Shown here: in pieces, positions 38,014 to 63,696 of the stretch
How positions within the stretch are numbered: the first letter of the stretch is position 1
Layout: each line of letters begins with the position of its first letter
DNA from: Candidatus Eremiobacteraceae bacterium
GTDB lineage: Bacteria; Vulcanimicrobiota; Vulcanimicrobiia; Eremiobacterales; Eremiobacteraceae
Length of the DNA stretch: 64,000 nucleotides
Direction: 5' to 3'
NCBI GenBank assembly: GCA_035710745.1
Contig: DASTCX010000006.1
Span: 1-64,000, forward strand
Translations under genes and position numbers: made by a program
The notes under the pieces: generated by a model
Told to the model about the DNA's origin: nothing
Databases searched by the model: none
What the model saw: only the letters and a program-made list of their open reading frames with translations

Positions 38014-41000
38014 TTACTTGATCGCTTTCGCCATCGCGATCCAGGACGAGACGTCTGACATCGCCTTTTCGTAGCGCGGCTTGAGGATAGCCGCGGCACG
38101 ATACGACGGTGCGTACGGTGCGCTTTCCGAGAACGCCGAGAAGAGCGCACCCTGGATATCCTCGCGCAGGCCCGGCGCCCAGAGGATGCCGTCCTCTTCG
38201 TTCTTGTAGTTCGCCGTCAGCATCTTCTCGAGCGCATTACCGGATGTCACGGCGCTCGTCGCGACCGGCGTGTTCAGCTTCTTGAGTCGAGCCAACTGCG
38301 CGTCGATCGAGTTGAGAGCGACGTCGATGCCCTCGACGTCGGAACGGAGACCCTCGACGAAGTCGTAGGTCGCCTTATAGTCCGCTGCCGTCAGCTTCGA
38401 CTGTGGATCGGGCCGGACGTCGAACGTCCGCGACTCGACCTTGCCGTCCGACCACGTGAAGCGCGCTCGATAGGTCCCGGGCACGACCTGGAGACCGAAG
38501 CCGGGTTGCCGCGCCTGCGGATTCGCGGCACCGCGCCACGGCGTGATCGGGTCGGTCTGTAGGTTCCACACGAAGCGGTTGAGGCCGATCTCGTTCTTCA
38601 CGAACGGCGTCTTCTTGCCGGTCGTCGGGTTCGTGCGCGAACCGATGACGTGCCGGATGCGATGACCGGCCGAGTCGTAGAAGTCGATGACCGGCGGCTT
38701 CTTTCCGGGCTTTGCCTGATAGAAGTATAGAACCGTGCCGCTCGGCGGATTGGGCGCGCCGTATTCGGTGTACGTTCCTTCGGCGAGTTCCGTCTGGTTG
38801 TACTCGTACGTCGGCATCGGCTGGAAGACGTAGTCGCCCGCTGCGCGTGCCGTGTCGAGCTGTTGTAGCGGCCGGATGTCATCCATGATATACGCGCCGC
38901 GGCCGTGCGTCGCGATGACGAGATCGTCGAACGTCTTCTGCATGCGGATGTCGAAGACTGCCGTGTGCGGTAGACCCGCTTGCAGCGTCTTCCACGACTT
39001 GCCGCCGTTGAACGACACCCAGATGCTCTTCTCGAGACCGACGTAGACGAGATTCGGGTTGACAAGATCCTGGCGGATCGCTCGGGCCGGTTCCGATGGC
39101 AGGCCCGCTGAGATCGATGTCCACGTCTTGCCGAAGTCGGTCGTCTTGAACACGTACGGCGTCGTATCGCCGCTGTAATGGCGGTCGTCGACCGCGAACG
39201 CGGTGCCGTCGGCGAACGTCGACGGCGCGACGATCTCGAACCGGCCGTACGGCGGCACGCCTTTCGGCGTCACGTTTGTCCAGTGCTTGCCGCCGTCGCG
39301 TGTCAGCTGGACGAGACCGTCATCGGTGCCCACCCAGATCTCGCCGCGGCCGATCGTGCTGCCTTCGATGTCGAGAATCGTGTCGTACGTCTCGGCGCCC
39401 GAGAAATCGTAGTTGATCGGGCCGCCCGGGATGGTCTGACGCGACTTGTCGTTGAGGGTGAGATCCGGGCTGATCGGCGTCCAGATCTTACCTTCGTCGT
39501 GCGACTGGAAGACGACATTGCCGCCGTACCATACGGTGTGCGGATCCCACGGCGCGAACGCGATCGGCGAATCCCAATCGAACCGATACTTGTCCTTGGA
39601 ATACGTGAAGCCGTTGAAGCCGCCAAGATCGGGAGCGGTGTTGATGGTGCGTTTTTCCTTGAGCATCCAAATTCCGACCGAGCCGTCTTCCGAGTCGCCC
39701 CAGATGTAGTCGGGATTGCCGGGATCGGGCACGACCCACACGCCGTCGCCGCCGACCGTTTGGAAAGCGTACGAATTCGTGATGCCGTCGGCATCGAGGC
39801 TGTTCGACGGCCAGCACCAGCCGCTGTTGTCCTGCATGCCGCCGCAGACCGTGTACGGATTGTTGTCGTCAAGCCCGACGTGATAGATCTGCGCGATCGC
39901 GTAGTTGCGCGAGAAGAACCAGTTCTGCCCGCCGTCGTTCGTCACCATCGCGCCGCCGTCTTGACCGACGATCATCCGCTTCGGGTTGTCGGGCGCGATC
40001 CAAATAGCGTGGTAGTCGGGGTGAAGATCGCCCGCGACCTCTTTGAACGTCTTGCCGCCGTCCTTGCTCACCGCAGGGAACATGGAGACGGAAAGGACGC
40101 GGTCCTTGTTCGTCGGATCGACGTCGATGTGCGAGAAGTAGAAGGGCCGCTGGTCGATGAGCGTGTTGTCGCTCACCATCGTCCAGTTCGCGCCGGCGTC
40201 GTCCGAACGGAATAAGAAGCCTTCCTTGCTCTGGATGAGGGCGTAGACGCGATTCGGATCTGAACGCGAGACCGCAAGCGCGATGCGCCCCATGAGTCCG
40301 GTCGGCAATCCGTGGCCGGTGAGCTTGGTCCAGGACTTCCCGCCGTCGGTCGATTTGTAGAGGCCGTCGTCCGGCCCACCGCTCGACGCGGTCCATGGTT
40401 GACGGCGGAACTGCCAGATGCCGGCATAGACGACGTTCGCGTCTTTCGGGTCGATCGCGATGTCGGATGCGCCGCTTGACGGGCCGACGTAGAGCGAATG
40501 CGTCCACGTCTTGCCGCCGTCGCTCGTGACGTAGACGCCGCCGGCAGGGCTGTCTTTAAAGAGGTTGCCGATGCCGCCCGCGATGACGTGATTGACGTTC
40601 GCGGGATCGACGACGATGCGCGAGATCGAATGGAGCTGGTCGAGGCCCATTTTCTTCCAAGAGTCACCGGCGTCGGTCGACTTGAAGATGCCGTCGCCAA
40701 GGATGACATCGTTGCGCGGATTCGCCTCGCCTGTGCCGACCCAAACGGTCTTGTCGTCGCTCGGGGCGATCGTCACGGCACCGATCGACTGAGTGTCCTG
40801 ATCGTCGAAGACCGACGCCCAAGTCTGCCCGCCGTTTTCGGACTTCCAAACGCCGCCGCCGGCCGCACCTATATAGTAGAGATTCGGATCGGTCGCACTG
40901 CCCGCGACGGCCGCGACACGGCCACCTGCGGCAGCCGGGCCGACTTCGCGCCATGAGAGCGCCGCGTACGGCGTCGACGGCGTCGGCGACGCCTTCGGTT

Positions 41001-41133
41001 TCGGCGACCCCTTCGGAGCGGGCGCCGGCGTGACCGGAGCGCTGGTCGCTGGCGCCGGCGTTGGCGGCGGAGTCGACTCGGGCGGGGCCATGGCGACAGA
41101 AACAGCGGCGAAAACGCCGATGATTGCGAGCAC
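38014..41133 (-). CDS. BNR/Asp-box beta-propeller protein (sortilin/VPS10-like)
   Basis: The 1039-residue protein has a signal peptide and a Pro-rich linker (~15-55), then two seven-to-ten-bladed propeller regions marked by Asp-boxes: SENGGQTW, STDAGDSW, TSDGGKTW, STDGGKSW, SKDGGKTF, TNDGGQNW, SHDEGKIW, TRDGGKHW, TTDFGKTW and SFNGGKSW. A C-terminal helical region ends at ~1039. This architecture is common in bacterial secreted proteins annotated as glycosyl hydrolase or VPS10-like; no sialidase active site is evident. The GTG at 41133 has GGAGG 5 bases upstream. The function is unknown. Confidence 0.85.
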   Translation of the reverse strand: MLAIIGVFAAVSVAMAPPESTPPPTPAPATSAPVTPAPAPKGSPKPKASPTPSTPYAALSWREVGPAAAGGRVAAVAGSATDPNLYYIGAAGGGVWKSENGGQTWASVFDDQDTQSIGAVTIAPSDDKTVWVGTGEANPRNDVILGDGIFKSTDAGDSWKKMGLDQLHSISRIVVDPANVNHVIAGGIGNLFKDSPAGGVYVTSDGGKTWTHSLYVGPSSGASDIAIDPKDANVVYAGIWQFRRQPWTASSGGPDDGLYKSTDGGKSWTKLTGHGLPTGLMGRIALAVSRSDPNRVYALIQSKEGFLFRSDDAGANWTMVSDNTLIDQRPFYFSHIDVDPTNKDRVLSVSMFPAVSKDGGKTFKEVAGDLHPDYHAIWIAPDNPKRMIVGQDGGAMVTNDGGQNWFFSRNYAIAQIYHVGLDDNNPYTVCGGMQDNSGWCWPSNSLDADGITNSYAFQTVGGDGVWVVPDPGNPDYIWGDSEDGSVGIWMLKEKRTINTAPDLGGFNGFTYSKDKYRFDWDSPIAFAPWDPHTVWYGGNVVFQSHDEGKIWTPISPDLTLNDKSRQTIPGGPINYDFSGAETYDTILDIEGSTIGRGEIWVGTDDGLVQLTRDGGKHWTNVTPKGVPPYGRFEIVAPSTFADGTAFAVDDRHYSGDTTPYVFKTTDFGKTWTSISAGLPSEPARAIRQDLVNPNLVYVGLEKSIWVSFNGGKSWKTLQAGLPHTAVFDIRMQKTFDDLVIATHGRGAYIMDDIRPLQQLDTARAAGDYVFQPMPTYEYNQTELAEGTYTEYGAPNPPSGTVLYFYQAKPGKKPPVIDFYDSAGHRIRHVIGSRTNPTTGKKTPFVKNEIGLNRFVWNLQTDPITPWRGAANPQARQPGFGLQVVPGTYRARFTWSDGKVESRTFDVRPDPQSKLTAADYKATYDFVEGLRSDVEGIDVALNSIDAQLARLKKLNTPVATSAVTSGNALEKMLTANYKNEEDGILWAPGLREDIQGALFSAFSESAPYAPSYRAAAILKPRYEKAMSDVSSWIAMAKAIK

Positions 41134-41284
41134 GGAAGCCTCCTATCGGTGACGCAAAGCGCAACTACATTATCAGTAGCGGCGCCGGCACCCTCTCGCG
41201 GTCGCGGTTGTTATGCGTGATTCCCACGCCATGACAATGCTGTGGCAAGGCCCGCCAAGCGTTGAGCGGGTATAACCGCGTCGG

Positions 41285-42256
41285 ATGAAGGCCGAGCGCA
41301 AGGGCAAACGCAGCACGGCAGCGGCGGATCCGATCGAGGTCAGCAAAGACGCGACGGTCGACGTCGCCGGCCGAGCCGTGTCGCTGACGAACCTCGATAA
41401 GCACTTCTGGCCGGCGATCACGAAGCGCGATTTGCTGCGCTACTACGCAGACGTCGCGCCGTATCTGCTGCCGCACATCGCCGACCGCGCGATGGTCATG
41501 AAGCGATACCCGAACGGCGCCGCCGCGCCGTTTTTCTTCATGAAGCGCGCGCCGTCGCCGCGACCCGATTGGATCCGCACGTGTCGGGTCGATCATCGCA
41601 GCGGCAATGTCATCGACTTCCCGGTGATCGACGATCTCGCCGCGCTGCTCTGGGTTATCAACCTCGGCTGCATCGACTTGAATCCTTGGTACGCGCGTTG
41701 CGATGACGTCGACCGGCCGGACTACCTGCACTTCGACCTCGATCCGGTCAAAGGCGGCTCGTTCGTGCAAGTGCGCGAGACGGCGATCATCGTCCGCGAC
41801 GCGCTCGACGCGATCGGCATGTCTGCATACGCGAAGACGACCGGATCGCGCGGCATCCACGTCTACGTGCCGATCGTCCGCGGGCCGACGCAGAAGGAGG
41901 TCTGGACGGTCGCAAAGGCGATCGCGGTCGAGCTCGCGCGCGCGAATCCGACGCTCATCACGGCGGAGTATCGCATCGCGAAGCGGCCGAAGAACCGGAT
42001 ACTCGTCGATTACAATCAGAACGCGTGGGGGCGCACGCTCGCGTCGATCTACTCGTTACGCCCGACGCCGAAAGCAACGGTTTCGATGCCCGTGACCTGG
42101 CGCCAGATCGAAAAGGGCGTCGAGATCGACGATTTCCGCATCGACAACGTGCCTGCGCTGCTACGCCGATCCGGAGACTTGTGGAAACCGATGCTGGCGA
42201 AAACAGGCCGGGTGGACCTGAAGCGACTCTTCTCAGGGCGACGGCGCAAAACGTGA
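41285..42256 (+). CDS. LigD-type DNA polymerase/primase domain protein
   Basis: The 323-residue standalone PolDom (archaeo-eukaryotic primase fold) carries the metal-binding HFDLDP (150-154) and the nucleotide-binding TTGSRGIHVYVP (185-196). In bacterial non-homologous end joining this domain, usually fused in LigD, fills gaps at double-strand breaks and can add ribonucleotides. The gene overlaps the DNA ligase start by four bases (GTGA), so the two are translationally coupled and likely work together. No Ku or phosphoesterase domain is encoded nearby. Confidence 0.92.
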   Translation: MKAERKGKRSTAAADPIEVSKDATVDVAGRAVSLTNLDKHFWPAITKRDLLRYYADVAPYLLPHIADRAMVMKRYPNGAAAPFFFMKRAPSPRPDWIRTCRVDHRSGNVIDFPVIDDLAALLWVINLGCIDLNPWYARCDDVDRPDYLHFDLDPVKGGSFVQVRETAIIVRDALDAIGMSAYAKTTGSRGIHVYVPIVRGPTQKEVWTVAKAIAVELARANPTLITAEYRIAKRPKNRILVDYNQNAWGRTLASIYSLRPTPKATVSMPVTWRQIEKGVEIDDFRIDNVPALLRRSGDLWKPMLAKTGRVDLKRLFSGRRRKT

Positions 42257-43956
42257 GCGGCGAGTCCTCAGCCGCAATCGTCGCCGAAGCGCCGCTGCGC
42301 GACTATGCGGCGATGTGCGACGCTGTCGCCGCGACGACGAAGCGGAACGAGAAGATCCAGATCGTCGCAGCCTACTTGAGGAGCGTACCCGATGATGCGC
42401 TCCCCGCGGCAGCGTCGTTCGCGAGCGGCGATGCGACGCCGCCGGGTTCGCCGTCGCTGCGGCTTGGCGGGCGGCTCGCGATCGACGCGGCGAGGTCTGT
42501 ATTCGAGATCGACGATCGATCGCTCCGCGACGCCTACAGCCGACACGGCGATCTGGGAAACGCGCTCGCCGATCTCGCATCGCATGCGATGCGCCCGACA
42601 CTATTCGCGGCGCCGCTGACGATCGGGCGTGTCGCTTCGATATTTCGCGAGATCGCGGGTGCGGTCGGCGCCGGCGCGAACAAGAAGCGGACGTCGCTCT
42701 TCGCGAGCCTGCTCTCGGACGCGACGGCGGCCGAAGTGCGCTATCTCGTCAAGCTTGCGACGGGCGATATGCGCATCGGTCTGAAGCAAGCGCTGACCGT
42801 CGACGCGCTTGCTGTCGCGTACGGCGCGGACGCGGCCGACGTTCGCCGCGCGCTCATGGCGATCGGCGACATCGGCGCCGTCGCCGGGCTTGCGCGGGCG
42901 GGAAGACTCGAAAAAGCCGGCGTCGCGTACGGCAAGCCGATCGGATTCATGCTCGCATCGCCGCTGCGCTTCGGCGGCGACTACAAGGAGCTCGAGCCCG
43001 GCGAGTATCTGCTCGAGGACAAGTTCGACGGGATCCGCATCCAGGCCCATTGCGACGACGGTTCGGTCAGATTGTTCAGCCGGCGGTTGAACGAGGTGTC
43101 GAGATCGTATCCCGAGGTGGTCGACGCGCTAGCAGCGCCGGGCGTGCCCCACGCGATCGTCGACGGCGAACTGCTCGCGTTCAAGGACGGGCGGGCGCTC
43201 CCGTTCCAGCATCTCCAGGGCCGGCTGCAGCGCAAGGTCGTCGATGCGTCGCACATCGAGGGCGTGCCGCTCGCGCTCGTCGTCTTCGACATCTTGGCGG
43301 AGCGCGATGACTTGCTCTTCGACCGTCCGCTCGGCGAGCGCCGCGCTCGGCTCGAAGCGTGGATCGAAAGCCTGCCCGCATCGGCTCGAAGCAACGTGCT
43401 GCTCGCCGTCGCGACATTCGTCACGCTGCGCGGAGATGCGCACGAACGCGCGTCGCTCCTCGAGCCCGCCTTCGAAGCCGCCCGCATGCGCGGCAACGAG
43501 GGGCTCATGATCAAAGCGCTCGCGTCGACATACACGCCTGGCCGGCGCGGCAAGCAATGGTTCAAGCTGAAGAAGGAGCTCGCGACGCTCGATTGCGTCG
43601 TCGTCGCCGTCGAATACGGACATGGAAAACGCAACGACGTCCTGTCGGACTACACGTTCGCGGTCCGCGCCGGCGATCGGCTCGTGACGATCGGCAAGGC
43701 GTACTCGGGACTCACCGACGCGGAGATAGCGACGATGACGCGCTGGTTCCTCGACCACGCGCTCGTCGACGAAGGCCGCCGCCTCGTCGTCGAGCCGACC
43801 ATCGTCGTCGAGATCGCATTCGACATCATCCAGCGCAGTTCGCTGCACGAGTCCGGGCTGGCCATGCGCTTTCCACGCGTCGTAAGGCTCCGGCCGGATA
43901 AAGGGCCGGGGCAGGCGTCGACGCTGCGCGACGCGCTCGCTCTCGTCGCCGATTGA
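42253..43956 (+). CDS. ATP-dependent DNA ligase
   Basis: The 567-residue protein starts at the GTG at 42253, overlapping the polymerase-domain stop. Residues 1-230 are the helical DNA-binding domain; the adenylation domain has the lysine motif EDKFDGIR (Lys257). Further nucleotidyltransferase motifs are seen as FSRRLNEVSR, IVDGELLAF, LMIKALASTY and WFKLKKE, followed by an OB-fold domain to the end. It resembles archaeal-type LigB ligases rather than NAD-dependent LigA. Together with the upstream LigD-like polymerase it probably serves DNA break repair. A longer reading to 42025 lies inside the polymerase gene in another frame. Confidence 0.92.
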   Translation: MSGESSAAIVAEAPLRDYAAMCDAVAATTKRNEKIQIVAAYLRSVPDDALPAAASFASGDATPPGSPSLRLGGRLAIDAARSVFEIDDRSLRDAYSRHGDLGNALADLASHAMRPTLFAAPLTIGRVASIFREIAGAVGAGANKKRTSLFASLLSDATAAEVRYLVKLATGDMRIGLKQALTVDALAVAYGADAADVRRALMAIGDIGAVAGLARAGRLEKAGVAYGKPIGFMLASPLRFGGDYKELEPGEYLLEDKFDGIRIQAHCDDGSVRLFSRRLNEVSRSYPEVVDALAAPGVPHAIVDGELLAFKDGRALPFQHLQGRLQRKVVDASHIEGVPLALVVFDILAERDDLLFDRPLGERRARLEAWIESLPASARSNVLLAVATFVTLRGDAHERASLLEPAFEAARMRGNEGLMIKALASTYTPGRRGKQWFKLKKELATLDCVVVAVEYGHGKRNDVLSDYTFAVRAGDRLVTIGKAYSGLTDAEIATMTRWFLDHALVDEGRRLVVEPTIVVEIAFDIIQRSSLHESGLAMRFPRVVRLRPDKGPGQASTLRDALALVAD

Positions 43957-44074
43957 CGCCTTTTCAGCATTTTCATCCGTCCGGACGCCCCGTCAAGAAA
44001 CAATTCGCTGACCTCTGCAATATCGCGTTATAACCACTTGGCATTCCCGGAGACTTGTGCTACAGTCGAGCCAG

Positions 44075-44092
44075 CAACTAATTCCTTAGTTG
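44075..44092. promoter_or_regulatory. 18-bp palindrome upstream of DUF5916 gene
   Basis: CAACTAA-TTCC-TTAGTTG is a perfect inverted repeat 18 bases before the ATG. The same site, differing at two positions when aligned in reverse complement, lies upstream of the paralogous gene at 63679-63696. It looks like an operator for a dimeric regulator such as MarR or TetR type; the regulator is not in the window. Confidence 0.6.
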
Positions 44093-44110: not shown

Positions 44111-46255
44111 ATGAAGCTGAAAACCTCGTTCGCGGTTCTAGCTTTCTGCGTCGTCGCGAGTACGTTCTTGCTGACGCTCGACAGCGTTGCGGCCCGTGCG
44201 GACACCGCGTCGTTCACTGTGGCGATCGCCAAGGTCGCCGAGGATCCCAAGATCGACGGCACGATGAACGATCCGGCCTGGAAGCAGGCGACGCACGTCT
44301 CCCTCGACTGGGATTACCAATTCCGGCGCCCAGCCGAGGAGAAGACCGACGCTTACATCATGGCGGACTCGCAGTTCGTCTATGTGGCGGTGGTCGCGCA
44401 GCAGAAGGAACCCGTGACCGCGACGATCCGCACGAACGACGTCGCGCTCGCGGCGGACGACGTCGTGCGCGTCTACTTCTGGCCCGGGGGCGACAAAGGT
44501 TTCGAATATTTCTTCGTCGCGACGCCTATCGGCACGCACAACGAGTTCTCATCAGAGAATTCGGCGTTCGCGCCGTCCTGGACGTCGGCCGGATCGCGTA
44601 CGCCGGACGGCTACATAGTCACGATGCGCATCCCGCTCAAAGTGATGCGGGGCGACGGCCGTACGACGTGGCGCGTGCAGTTCGAACGCGCGGTCCACGT
44701 GACGAACCAAGATTTCGAGTGGGCGCACGATCCGTCGCAGAACGGCGTCGACAACTCGACCTTCGTGGGCTACCTCACCGGCATGTCGCCGGTGCGAGCG
44801 AGCCTGCGGCCGTCGCCGCGTGTGGGCGTTTATGCGCTCGGCCAGGTCGGCTCGAGTTCTGCAGGCGGCGACACATCGCACATGGGCGCCGACATCTCCC
44901 TTCCGATAACGAACACGTCGTCGTTCTTCAGCACGCTCCATCCTGACTATTCGAACGTCGACCGCGACCAGCAATCGATTTCGCCGACCGCGTTCGCGCG
45001 CCAGTTCAGCGAAGTGCGCCCGTTCTTCACGCAGGGCTCGAACTCGTTTCAGAACTTCAACTGCAACGATTGCGTCGACTATCCGTTCCTCTATACCCCG
45101 GCGATCCCGACGCCGACCGACGGCTATGCGGTCGAGGGCGTTCAGGGCCTCGCCTCTTTTTCCGCCTTCGATGCGCTCGGGCACTTCGGCCGCTCAGACA
45201 ATGCCGAAAGCCTGTCGTGGACGACGCCCGACAGGTATTGGCAAGGGCACGTCATGCATTTCAGCACGATCTTACCCGGCGTCTTCGACAGCACGAACAT
45301 GTATCAGCTCATCGAAGGGAACCGGCGAAATTCGAGCATCTACTTCACAGACGCCCAAGAGACGGGATCGTTCGTCACCGATCCGGGTCAAGCGTACATG
45401 CGCGAGTGGGGCCTCAACCTCTACACGCAAAAGGAAGGCTTCTATCCGGCGTACCACGAGATCGGTCAGCAGTTCGCTCCGTTCGACACGTTCGTCACGG
45501 CGAACGACCTGCATGGCCCGTCGCTCTACATGACAAAGACGTGGGATTTCGCACCGACCGCCCCGGTCCTCAATTACACGCTCTCGCAAGACATCCAGCA
45601 CTACGACAACAGCGCCGGCAAACTCGGGCTCGCCGACGCGTTCACCGTGTTGACGATCAACACGAAGTCGCAATTCCAATTTCAGGCGACGAGCGGTTAT
45701 CAGTACTTCCTCATCGGCGCGTACGGGTCGACGATCGACCAGAACGGCGCCGCGCTCAGTTACGGACCGAACACGAACGCGCCGACGACCGTGACGTACA
45801 ACATCGGGCGTTTCGGGCCGGGCTATCTGCGCACGACGACCCGCCTTGCGACGCTTCGCACCGGACCGCGTGGAACGCTGACGCTCGAGGGCGATAACAC
45901 GAACCAAACGCTCGACTTCGAAGGTGCCAAGGAAGTACAGTGGCTGGAGCGGGCGAGCTTTGCGTATCAGATCGATCCGCAGTCGTCGCTCGCGCTTGGC
46001 GTGCGCCACATCATCGGCACGAGCCCATTCGTAACGCCGCCGCCTCTTAATCTGCATCAGCCGTCGGGGGCGTGCTCGCCGCGTTTCGTATCGCCCGGAT
46101 GCTTCTCCGACGCGTCGAATCTTTCGCTCGCGTACTACCACCACATCGGTCCGAACGAGTTATACCTCGTCTACGGCGACCCGAACCAGCTGAACACGCT
46201 GCCGGCGTTCATCATCAAGTTCGTCCACTACTTCGGCGCCCAAAAAGGCACCTGA
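44111..46255 (+). CDS. DUF5916/CBM9-like outer-membrane protein, paralogue 1
   Basis: The 714-residue protein has a signal peptide, then an N-terminal CBM9-like domain (PKIDGTMNDPAWKQATHVSL, DAYIMADSQFVYVAVVA, FEYFFVATPIGT) and a barrel-like C-terminal half. The DUF5916 hallmark HPDYSNVDRDQQSISPTAFA is followed by RPFFTQGSNSF. It is predicted to be an outer-membrane protein of unknown role, perhaps carbohydrate- or ligand-binding uptake. It is a clear paralogue of 61502-63637. A perfect palindrome lies in its promoter (44075-44092), and its 3' end is followed by a REP-like hairpin. Confidence 0.8.
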   Translation: MKLKTSFAVLAFCVVASTFLLTLDSVAARADTASFTVAIAKVAEDPKIDGTMNDPAWKQATHVSLDWDYQFRRPAEEKTDAYIMADSQFVYVAVVAQQKEPVTATIRTNDVALAADDVVRVYFWPGGDKGFEYFFVATPIGTHNEFSSENSAFAPSWTSAGSRTPDGYIVTMRIPLKVMRGDGRTTWRVQFERAVHVTNQDFEWAHDPSQNGVDNSTFVGYLTGMSPVRASLRPSPRVGVYALGQVGSSSAGGDTSHMGADISLPITNTSSFFSTLHPDYSNVDRDQQSISPTAFARQFSEVRPFFTQGSNSFQNFNCNDCVDYPFLYTPAIPTPTDGYAVEGVQGLASFSAFDALGHFGRSDNAESLSWTTPDRYWQGHVMHFSTILPGVFDSTNMYQLIEGNRRNSSIYFTDAQETGSFVTDPGQAYMREWGLNLYTQKEGFYPAYHEIGQQFAPFDTFVTANDLHGPSLYMTKTWDFAPTAPVLNYTLSQDIQHYDNSAGKLGLADAFTVLTINTKSQFQFQATSGYQYFLIGAYGSTIDQNGAALSYGPNTNAPTTVTYNIGRFGPGYLRTTTRLATLRTGPRGTLTLEGDNTNQTLDFEGAKEVQWLERASFAYQIDPQSSLALGVRHIIGTSPFVTPPPLNLHQPSGACSPRFVSPGCFSDASNLSLAYYHHIGPNELYLVYGDPNQLNTLPAFIIKFVHYFGAQKGT

Positions 46256-48383: not shown

Positions 48384-49499
48384 GTGCCCCGCATAGTTTC
48401 GCTCCTCGCAAGCGGCACAGAGATCGTCTGCGCCCTCGGCGCCGGCGAGTGCCTCGTCGGTCGATCGCATGAGTGCGACCGGCCGGTGTGGGTGCGCCGG
48501 CTACCTGCGTGCACGCGTCCGACGTTCGACGTCTCGCAGACGAGCGGCGAGATCGATGCTGAAGTGAGGCGACGTCTCCGAACCGGAGAACCTCTTTACT
48601 CGATCGACGCGGACCTCATCGAAACTTTGCACGCCGACATTTTGATCGCCCAAGTCCACTGCGACGTCTGCGCTGTGACGCCGGACGATGCGCGGCGAGC
48701 CGGAACGGACGCGGGGAGACACGTCGTCGCGCTCCAAGCGGGCAGCGTCAAGGGCATCTTCGACGATATCGCGTCGATCGGCGGGGCTGTCGGCCTCGAA
48801 GACGCGGCAAGCGCTCTCATCGCAGATCTGAAAGCGCAAATCGAATCGGTGCGCCTCGCGACGGGCGGTACGACTCCGCGGCTCGTTCTCGTCCTCGAGT
48901 GGACGGACCCGATCTTCGTCGCCGGCAATTGGATGCCGGAGCTGATCGAAGCGGCAAACGGGATGGTCGCGCTCGGCGATGGCTCATCGTATTCCTCGCA
49001 AGCGACGTTACAAGAAGTAGAAAGCGCTGATCCCGACATCCTCATCGTCGCGCCGTGCGGATTCGATCTCGACAGGACGCTAAAGGAAATCTCGTACCTC
49101 GAATCGCTTCCCGGCTGGAACCGGCTCCGTGCGGTCAGAGACGGAAACGTGATCTTCGCCGACGGCAACGCGTACTTCAATCGATCCGGCACATCGATCG
49201 CCGACACAGCTGAAATACTCGCGGAGATCATCCACGGCATTGGGAAAAAGCACTATCGCACGGCCTGGCTACCGTACGGCGAAGCGCGGATCGCCGCCGA
49301 GATCAACCGCCGTCATAGCGACGCGTGCGCTCGTGGTCTCGCGACGTATGCAGATCCGACGACGGGCTATGAAGTGATGACGGCGGATTTCTTGAGACGA
49401 CGAGGTGCGTGCTGCTCGAGCGGGTGCCGCCACTGCCCGTATAAAGGATTCGATGCGGAGCCAACGCTGACAGCGGAAAGTGCGGCCACCGGACTCTAA
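48384..49499 (+). CDS. BtuF-like cobalamin-binding domain fused to a DUF5522 cysteine-rich domain
   Basis: The 371-residue protein starts at a GTG at 48384. Residues ~1-290 form the helical-backbone metal-receptor fold of BtuF/FhuD-type binding proteins (RIVSLLASGTEIVCALGAGE and LVGRSHECD). The C-terminal ~45 residues carry a DUF5522 motif: HSDACARG, DPTTGYEVMTADFL, RRRGACCSSGCRHCPY. There is no signal peptide, so a soluble cytoplasmic role is more likely than classic import. The cysteine motif could bind a metal. The fusion is uncommon enough to flag. The gene follows the TPR gene with a 25-base gap. Confidence 0.8.
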   Translation: MPRIVSLLASGTEIVCALGAGECLVGRSHECDRPVWVRRLPACTRPTFDVSQTSGEIDAEVRRRLRTGEPLYSIDADLIETLHADILIAQVHCDVCAVTPDDARRAGTDAGRHVVALQAGSVKGIFDDIASIGGAVGLEDAASALIADLKAQIESVRLATGGTTPRLVLVLEWTDPIFVAGNWMPELIEAANGMVALGDGSSYSSQATLQEVESADPDILIVAPCGFDLDRTLKEISYLESLPGWNRLRAVRDGNVIFADGNAYFNRSGTSIADTAEILAEIIHGIGKKHYRTAWLPYGEARIAAEINRRHSDACARGLATYADPTTGYEVMTADFLRRRGACCSSGCRHCPYKGFDAEPTLTAESAATGL

Positions 49500-61501: not shown

Positions 61502-63637
61502 TCAGGTGCCCTTGTCGGCGCCGAAGTACTTGATATACTTGATGATGAAACGCGGCGAGGTCTGGAACGTCGCCGCGTCGCCGTAGACGACGTACAGCTC
61601 GCCGCCCGGCACCTTGCGGTGGTATGCGGCCGAGAGGTTCCACGCGTCGGCCGGTTGCCGTAAGTTGAAATGTTGCGGCGTCAACGCGACGAGCAGTGGC
61701 GAGAGGCCGATGATGCGCCGCGCGCCGAACGCGAACGACTGATCCGGCCCCGACTGGTACGAGTAATCGAGCCGATCGAGCCACTGCGTGGCGCGGTCGC
61801 CTGTGTCGACGAACTGCTGCGTGTCGTCAGCTTCGAGGGTCAGCGCGCCGCGCGTGCCCGTACGGACCGTCGCGCTCCGGAACCACGAATCGAGCTCGCC
61901 CGGTCCGAAACGGCCGCGGTTGAAGCCGATGAACGACGGCAGAAGGCCGTTGAGATTGTAGCCGATCTGAATCCCTTGCTGCGTCACCGGCGTGAAGACC
62001 GGAGGCAGCAGCAGGTACGACGATCCGGTAGAGACCTGGAGGTTGAACAATGTCCGCGTCGTGAGCGACGCGTTGACACCTTCGTTCGTCTGGTCGAGCG
62101 ACCCCGTGTGGTCGTGGTAGCGGCTAACATCCCCGTTCAGATCGAATTCCGTGAATCGGTCGGTCGTGGCGAACTTGAACGGGTCGAAGAAGTTGACGTC
62201 GTAGCCGGCGATATCGGGGTGCTGAACGATTCCGTCGACCGGATCGAAGAAGGCACCGACCTTGCGGATCACGGCGCCGACAGCCGCACCCTTCGCGTCG
62301 AACCAGCCGGCGCCGGCCTCGTAGCGCTGGGCTTCGCCGCCCTCGACGACATTCGAGCCCGAGTCGTTTCCGTAGCGCGCGAAAACTTGGAAGTCGGTGA
62401 GGTTGTTCTCCGTGAACGTCATGCCGTCGGCTAAATCGTGCACGGGCCCTTTTTCGATGACGCCGGCGCCCGCGTCGACCTGGCTGCCTTGGAAATCGAT
62501 CGCCGTCCGCTGGTTCGGTGAGACGTAATCGATGGCGTCACCGGTGTCCGTACGGCCGGTGATCTCGGTGTGGAGGGCTCCATAACTGAAGAGCCCGTGC
62601 TGCCCTTCGATTGCGTAGCCGTCGCGAGGCGTCGGGATATTCGGGGTGTAGAACTCGACGATGCCGGGGCAGCTCTCGCAAATGCCCTGCGGATAGCTAT
62701 AGACGTTCGCGCCCTGCGTGAAGAACGGACGCACGTCGTTGAAGATGCGCTGGAATGCGGTCGGTGCGATCGTCTGCTGGTCGACCTCGACGTTCGAGTA
62801 GTCCGGATGCAGGGTTGCGACGAACGACGTGCCGGTGACGATCGGGATCGAGATGTCCGCGCCCACACGCGACGTGTCGCCGCCGTTCGACTTCGGCGCG
62901 AGCTCACCGAGGCCGTAGACGCCGACGCGCGACTTGCCGCGCTGCGCGGACAGACGCGGCAGTCCGCTGAGCGATCCCGAATACGTGACGTCGTTGAAGT
63001 TCTGTTGCGACGCGCCCCAGCTCCAGACGAGGACGTCGTTCGTCACCGCGAGGTAGCGGATGAACTGGACGCGCCAACTGCCCGAGCCGGTGCCGTGCAT
63101 GACGGAGAGCGGGATCTTCTCGGTGATGATGTACCCGCCGTCGACGATACGCCCGACCGTCCACCACTCCGGCTCGAACGAGTTGTTCTCGGTCGAGAAC
63201 TGGTAGTGCGTGCCGATCGGCGTCGACGTGAACTTGTAACGGAAACCGCTCGTGCCGTTCGGCCACAGATCGACCTGGACTTCGTCGTCGGTGTCGAGAC
63301 CGACGCCATTCGTATGCTCGGTCGCTCGGATCGGCGTGCTCTGGCGCGCATCGATGCCGACGTAGAGGAACGGCCCGTCCGTGATGAGATACAGCGTCGT
63401 CGCTTGCGTCGCCGTGGCGTGGTAGCGTAGGTCGTAGCCGAGGTGGGCGACGGCGGCCGATTTCCACACCGGGCTATCGAGCGTTCCGTCGATCGGCGGC
63501 GCCGTCGTCGTCGACGGAATCGTTATAGAGTCGAGATGAAGCGTTTCGACGGCAGCGGCGGCCGGAGCCGGGGCGATCGCGAAGCAAATGGTCGCGATGA
63601 GGCAGACGGACGAGAGCGCTGTTCCGAGGCGGTGCAC
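61502..63637 (-). CDS. DUF5916/CBM9-like outer-membrane protein, paralogue 2
   Basis: The 711-residue protein starts at the GTG at 63637, which has GAGGAG 7 bases upstream and a signal peptide following; the in-frame extension to 63778 has no such support and would begin before the shared palindrome. N-terminal CBM9-like segments (PPIDGTLDSPVWKSAAVAHL, FLYVGIDARQ) precede the DUF5916 hallmark HPDYSNVEVDQQTIAPTAFQ and RPFFTQGANVYSYPQGICES. It is about the same length and order as 44111-46255, and both end FGADKGT / FGAQKGT. An outer-membrane role is predicted. Confidence 0.8.
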   Translation of the reverse strand: MHRLGTALSSVCLIATICFAIAPAPAAAAVETLHLDSITIPSTTTAPPIDGTLDSPVWKSAAVAHLGYDLRYHATATQATTLYLITDGPFLYVGIDARQSTPIRATEHTNGVGLDTDDEVQVDLWPNGTSGFRYKFTSTPIGTHYQFSTENNSFEPEWWTVGRIVDGGYIITEKIPLSVMHGTGSGSWRVQFIRYLAVTNDVLVWSWGASQQNFNDVTYSGSLSGLPRLSAQRGKSRVGVYGLGELAPKSNGGDTSRVGADISIPIVTGTSFVATLHPDYSNVEVDQQTIAPTAFQRIFNDVRPFFTQGANVYSYPQGICESCPGIVEFYTPNIPTPRDGYAIEGQHGLFSYGALHTEITGRTDTGDAIDYVSPNQRTAIDFQGSQVDAGAGVIEKGPVHDLADGMTFTENNLTDFQVFARYGNDSGSNVVEGGEAQRYEAGAGWFDAKGAAVGAVIRKVGAFFDPVDGIVQHPDIAGYDVNFFDPFKFATTDRFTEFDLNGDVSRYHDHTGSLDQTNEGVNASLTTRTLFNLQVSTGSSYLLLPPVFTPVTQQGIQIGYNLNGLLPSFIGFNRGRFGPGELDSWFRSATVRTGTRGALTLEADDTQQFVDTGDRATQWLDRLDYSYQSGPDQSFAFGARRIIGLSPLLVALTPQHFNLRQPADAWNLSAAYHRKVPGGELYVVYGDAATFQTSPRFIIKYIKYFGADKGT

Positions 63638-63678: not shown

Positions 63679-63696
63679 CAACTAATTCACTAGTTG
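63679..63696. promoter_or_regulatory. 18-bp palindrome upstream of DUF5916 paralogue 2
   Basis: CAACTA-ATTCAC-TAGTTG lies 41 bases before the GTG start. Reading toward its gene it is CAACTAGTGAATTAGTTG, which matches the reverse-complemented site at 44075-44092 at 16 of 18 positions. Confidence 0.6.

Follow-up and report, generated by a model that had tools for sequence, protein, structure and literature searches.

Two palindromic dyads in the genome of a Candidatus Eremiobacteraceae bacterium are predicted, with high confidence, to be operators of a winged-helix repressor of the BlaI/MecI family (PF03965) that is partnered by an M56 protease and controls genes for DUF5916 barrel proteins. 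Most of what is known about BlaI-M56 pairs comes from beta-lactam resistance, and the Eremiobacterota are a little-studied soil phylum. The stretch of DNA analysed here, referred to as the window, comprises 64,000 nucleotides (C6:1-64000 of genome G000; 2.97 Mb, 97.9% complete). What could be observed directly were the dyads and their positions, the class-wide confinement of such sites to promoters of BlaI and DUF5916 genes, and the way in which operator subtype covaries with BlaI subtype. The reader of the dyads very probably belongs to the BlaI/MecI family and not to the MarR or TetR families, as judged from sequence.

Two dyads ahead of paralogous DUF5916 genes

The relevant features of the window are as follows.

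38014..41133, minus strand: Sortilin/Vps10-BNR-repeat gene behind operator 3 (Pfam PF15902)
41162..41179, no strand: weaker, probable operator 3, CAACTACATTATCAGTAG; 16.8 bits, the last window site above 15 bits
44038..44066, plus strand: probable promoter of gene 1, TTGGCA (44038-44043), 17 bp, TACAGT (44061-44066), a consensus match
44075..44092, no strand: predicted operator 1, CAACTAATTCCTTAGTTG; exact CAACTA-N6-TAGTTG dyad, same sequence in the congener
44111..46255, plus strand: DUF5916 gene 1, 714 aa, beginning 18 bp downstream of site 1 (Pfam PF19313/PF06452)
61502..63637, minus strand: DUF5916 gene 2, a paralogue with a GTG start at 63637, 41 bp downstream of site 2 (Pfam PF19313)
63679..63696, no strand: predicted operator 2, CAACTAATTCACTAGTTG (toward the gene, CAACTAGTGAATTAGTTG); exact CAACTA-N6-TAGTTG dyad

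The paired CAACTA...TAGTTG inverted repeats at 44075-44092 and 63679-63696 are exactly as the original prediction described them, and no other exact CAACTA-N6-TAGTTG dyad is present in the 64-kb window. The agreement of 16 in 18 positions that had been claimed for the gene-oriented sites holds on the plus strand; when each site is oriented toward its gene (site 2 on the minus strand) the agreement is 14 of 18, and all four differences fall within the spacer. Both sites do lie shortly upstream of paralogous DUF5916 genes, with gaps of 18 bp and 41 bp, and both gene products score above the cut-off for PF19313 and share 40% identity. The outer-membrane label given to these products is backed by the predicted fold. 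An AlphaFold2 model of the gene 1 protein (mean pLDDT 81, pTM 0.79) shows a signal helix and a CBM9-like sandwich together with an extended series of antiparallel strands. Foldseek retrieves a xylanase CBM9 (1i82) and, for the barrel, TonB receptors (Cir, BtuB), LptD and AlgE at low TM-scores (~0.2-0.36). Because of this fold prediction and the Foldseek barrel matches, the DUF5916 protein is likely to be located in the outer membrane. A literature search for DUF5916 found no paper in the library that it covered.

Distribution of the motif within the genome

The genome was covered by pattern searches and by chosen stretches. The motif is not randomly abundant, since the exact pattern occurs three times genome-wide against ~0.05 copies expected from hexamer frequencies over 2.97 Mb, and its promoter bias is evident in that all three copies sit at DUF5916 promoters. 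The search for further copies upstream of genes, which had been proposed along with the original prediction, yielded one more exact copy and one copy with a single mismatch, both at DUF5916 genes.

C6:87093: third exact copy, at the start of a third DUF5916 gene
C40:33055: one-mismatch copy, preceding a fourth, related DUF5916 gene

The product of the C40 gene is missed by the Pfam DUF5916 model, yet it is 41% identical to that of gene 1. Upstream of two further DUF5916 paralogues, both on C3, no site is present. The shorter core ACTA-N6-TAGT is found in nine genomic copies versus ~3.8 expected, four of the nine being the DUF5916 sites. A reversed-pattern control made a poor null, as it resembles GATC, which is common in this GC-rich DNA, and positional bias and shuffles were the nulls relied on.

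Genomic matches with one to two mismatches are mostly noise; the genes at these sites were named by reading their translations and not by a family search. Those rejected as regulon sites lie between an Lrp/AsnC gene and pyruvate phosphate dikinase (C16:212737), at a GntR gene (C16:169201), ahead of a putative ABC-transporter operon (C19:64899), within a coding frame (C16:239820) and between two gene ends (C3:79698). The locus at C19:64899 (L039:1501) carries a different pair of dyads, GTACTACTACGTTAGTAC and GTACAATAGTAC, after a TTGACA-N17-TATTGT promoter upstream of the putative transporter operon. A site at an S10 peptidase gene (C6:100437) matches ACTA-N6-TAGT, but its score is only 3.9 bits and the congener has a disrupted version, so this gene was left out of the regulon.

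A class-wide survey of BlaI promoters

A palindromic profile was trained on the upstream DNA of 59 BlaI genes from other Eremiobacterota genomes, with the genome under study and its congener left out, and a site is present in 55 of these 59 training sequences. Applied to the window, the BlaI-trained profile ranks the site at 44075 first (24.8 bits), that at 63679 second (23.7) and that at 41162 third (16.8), which amounts to three sites above 15 bits versus a mean of 0.075 in shuffled windows. As the seed of the profile drew on the finding itself, a second search was run from random starts: the same dyad emerged from the BlaI promoters in 39 of 60 runs, and the log-likelihood of the seedless search was 990 versus at most 49 in shuffled upstreams.

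Sites above 14 bits occur in 17 of 60 DUF5916 upstreams versus 0.05 expected. Within 514 kb surrounding 80 DUF5916 genes, all 49 profile sites above 15 bits are situated at DUF5916 and/or BlaI promoters (48 assigned automatically and one, L238, by hand; L238 is site 1 as it occurs in the congener, overlooked by the script's motif). The exact pattern is found in 16 copies in 11 of the 117 class genomes, and all 16 lie at BlaI promoters, DUF5916 promoters or both. Four genomes (G037, G040, G104 and G105) have a single dyad in the gap that separates blaI-M56 from a divergent DUF5916 gene; in G034 and G061, blaI-M56 is preceded by two dyads. Overall, two dyads are seen in 29 of the 53 site-bearing BlaI promoters, mostly 44-47 bp apart.

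The BlaI and M56 genes of the genome

The sole PF03965 (BlaI/MecI) gene in the genome (C6:93455-93838, E 4.8e-29) is located 6 kb from the site at C6:87093, and the best solved relatives of its product are MecI and BlaI (1okr, E 7e-9). It is followed by a gene for an M56 (BlaR1-type) protease (PF05569, E 2.5e-29) with a HELGH zinc motif, the coding sequence of which overlaps the end of blaI. A related dyad, AACCTAATAATTTAGGTG, is positioned between the -10 element of a TTGACG-N17-TACGCT promoter and the start codon of blaI. Outside the window, the BlaI operon also includes a paralogue of the Vps10/BNR gene.

No penicillin-binding sensor domain was detected in the M56 protein, for which Pfam gives M56/M48 only; its C-terminal part is composed of degenerate repeats (V.DLI.L.N.GV...), possibly a sensor region that replaces the penicillin-binding domain. 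Since the protein carries no recognised penicillin sensor and ends in repeats, a beta-lactam is probably not what it senses, and with no sensor domain a beta-lactam function is unsupported. The ORF after the M56 gene carries similar repeats and has no Pfam match (L018:9835-13198, corresponding to C6:93835-97198).

Operator subtypes and BlaI subtypes

Across the sequences compared, operator subtype and BlaI subtype vary together. BlaI proteins of the Q subtype, defined by an NTVQT recognition helix, are associated with operators of the form ACC...GGT, with C as the third base of each half, in 15 of 15 cases, whereas this form is found in 0 of 39 site-bearing promoters of other BlaIs, the subtype of most upstreams having been inferred from an N-terminal E-x-E-Q signature. 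These counts should not be taken as independent, because the proteins form two clades and perhaps one or two evolutionary switches are involved; in the tree a single branch (support 94/88) separates the Q rows from the L rows.

The genome and its congener each have one BlaI, of the Q subtype, with ACCTAA-N4-TTAGGT as its own operator. Their DUF5916 operators are of the A type (AACTAA; AAC...GTT), a pattern that in other genomes goes with the other subtype. Comparison with the congener shows the C40 operator and site 2 as conserved islands in diverged flanks. The operators at sites 1 and 3 are identical in the congener and are less informative on conservation because the DNA around them is well conserved. 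On this sequence comparison the A-type DUF5916 operators are not decaying. We infer that the single Q-type BlaI probably reads both operator types, and the long stem branch of this BlaI (0.8) would weakly fit a changed specificity.

Alternative explanations

The dyads could in principle be chance palindromes or functionless relics, and the window does contain just two exact copies; this is very improbable given that ~0.05 copies are expected genome-wide and three are seen, all at DUF5916 promoters, and that operators have been kept between species where their flanks diverged. The original prediction also proposed a shared operator and a small regulon, both of which are well supported, the regulon being larger than two genes; its suggestion of a MarR- or TetR-type regulator is unsupported. 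A reader from another family (MarR, TetR, PadR or Lrp), at least in this genome, would accommodate the different operator that the genome's sole BlaI has for itself. It is an unlikely reading, as none of the 16 exact copies from the 117 genomes lies in the promoter of a MarR or TetR gene, and the sites occur at BlaI promoters and change with the BlaI subtype.

The mismatch between the Q-type BlaI and the A-type operators could also be explained by a second BlaI of the L subtype, missing from both assemblies, that reads the A-type operators while the Q-type BlaI governs only its own operon. L-type BlaIs are present in genera of the same family (G003, G010, G012, G005, G011 and G008), some beside a Q-type BlaI, and the DUF5916 sites match L-type operators. 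The genome is nevertheless 97.9% complete, and no second gene was recovered in G000 or G001 with PF03965 or with a mostly L-type profile (6 of 7 rows), which leaves this explanation rather doubtful, if somewhat less so than a reader from another family. It is an even call whether the two BlaI lineages of the Eremiobacterota, with Q or L in the recognition helix, read operators differing at one base per half-site and the L lineage has been lost in this genus, its retained DUF5916 operators being taken over by the Q-type BlaI. Such a regulator replacement would have occurred inside a regulon that is found class-wide, senses the envelope and has nothing to do with beta-lactam resistance.

Members of the regulon

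The best supported regulon, as predicted from sequence, comprises four DUF5916 genes, blaI-M56 and, probably, the Vps10/BNR gene at 38014-41133. Operator 3, ahead of the last of these, is retained by the congener with the sequence CAACTAGATTATCAGTAG, which scores 17.8 bits. A further site, CTACTATAGAATTAGTAG, scores 23.7 bits at C7:18738-18755 (L021:4739), with a TMEM175-type channel gene on one side and a divergent TPR-containing gene on the other, and the channel gene is a possible member. The window also holds other genes: at 41285-43956 (plus strand) a LigD-polymerase-like gene, recognised from its translation, is followed by an ATP-dependent DNA ligase gene, which suggests an end-joining pair, and at 48384-49499 (plus strand) a periplasmic-binding-protein domain (PF01497) and DUF5522 are present in one open frame.

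Proposed mechanism

In the mechanism that we infer, binding would consist of a BlaI dimer on each dyad, at or near the promoter. At gene 1, operator 1 would cover ~+1 to +18, that is, the transcription start, and at the C40 gene the dyad overlaps a TTGACA -35 box. Bound BlaI would thereby repress the DUF5916 barrel genes together with the blaI-M56 operon that encodes it. The M56-family membrane metalloprotease, whose gene adjoins blaI, would sense an envelope signal, and proteolytic induction would follow if it cleaves BlaI, allowing the regulon to be expressed; the analogy for both steps is S. aureus, in which direct cleavage of BlaI by BlaR1 is documented (PMC9834060).

Comparison with known systems and significance

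The proposed system resembles BlaI/MecI-BlaR1/MecR1 of staphylococci and Bacillus licheniformis in its PF03965 repressor, its autoregulated palindromic operator and a co-encoded M56 protease with HELGH. It differs in that the M56 protein has no detected penicillin sensor and that the targets are DUF5916 barrels, whereas there they are a beta-lactamase or PBP2a. The operator core is here ACTAA-N4-TTAGT and in the classical BlaI/MecI operator TACANNTGTA (PMC7253601); the canonical core is absent from sites 1 and 2, the centres of which are TAATTCCTTA and TAATTCACTA, with the outer ACTA/TAGT alone being common.

In Clostridium thermocellum, BlaI_0696 and BlaI_1845 were characterised by DAP-seq and EMSA and have small autoregulated regulons in which two dyads per promoter are frequent (PMC8457756). 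The BlaI_1845 half-site GACTAT has the same ACTA core as the sites described here, yet the outer base and spacing of the C. thermocellum sites are unlike them and no outer-membrane targets were reported there (PMC8457756). The CopY/CopR copper repressors belong to a related family and share the dyad geometry (PMC7253601), but their metal-sensing Cys-X-Cys tail is absent from the BlaI in this genome and their consensus, RNYKACANNYGTMRNY, is unmatched by the operators.

Literature searches for BlaI in Eremiobacterota, or for BlaI with M56 in other roles, returned nothing on this regulon. A class-wide regulon of the kind predicted here would link BlaI-M56 pairs to DUF5916 proteins, and its operator code becomes testable in a little-studied phylum.
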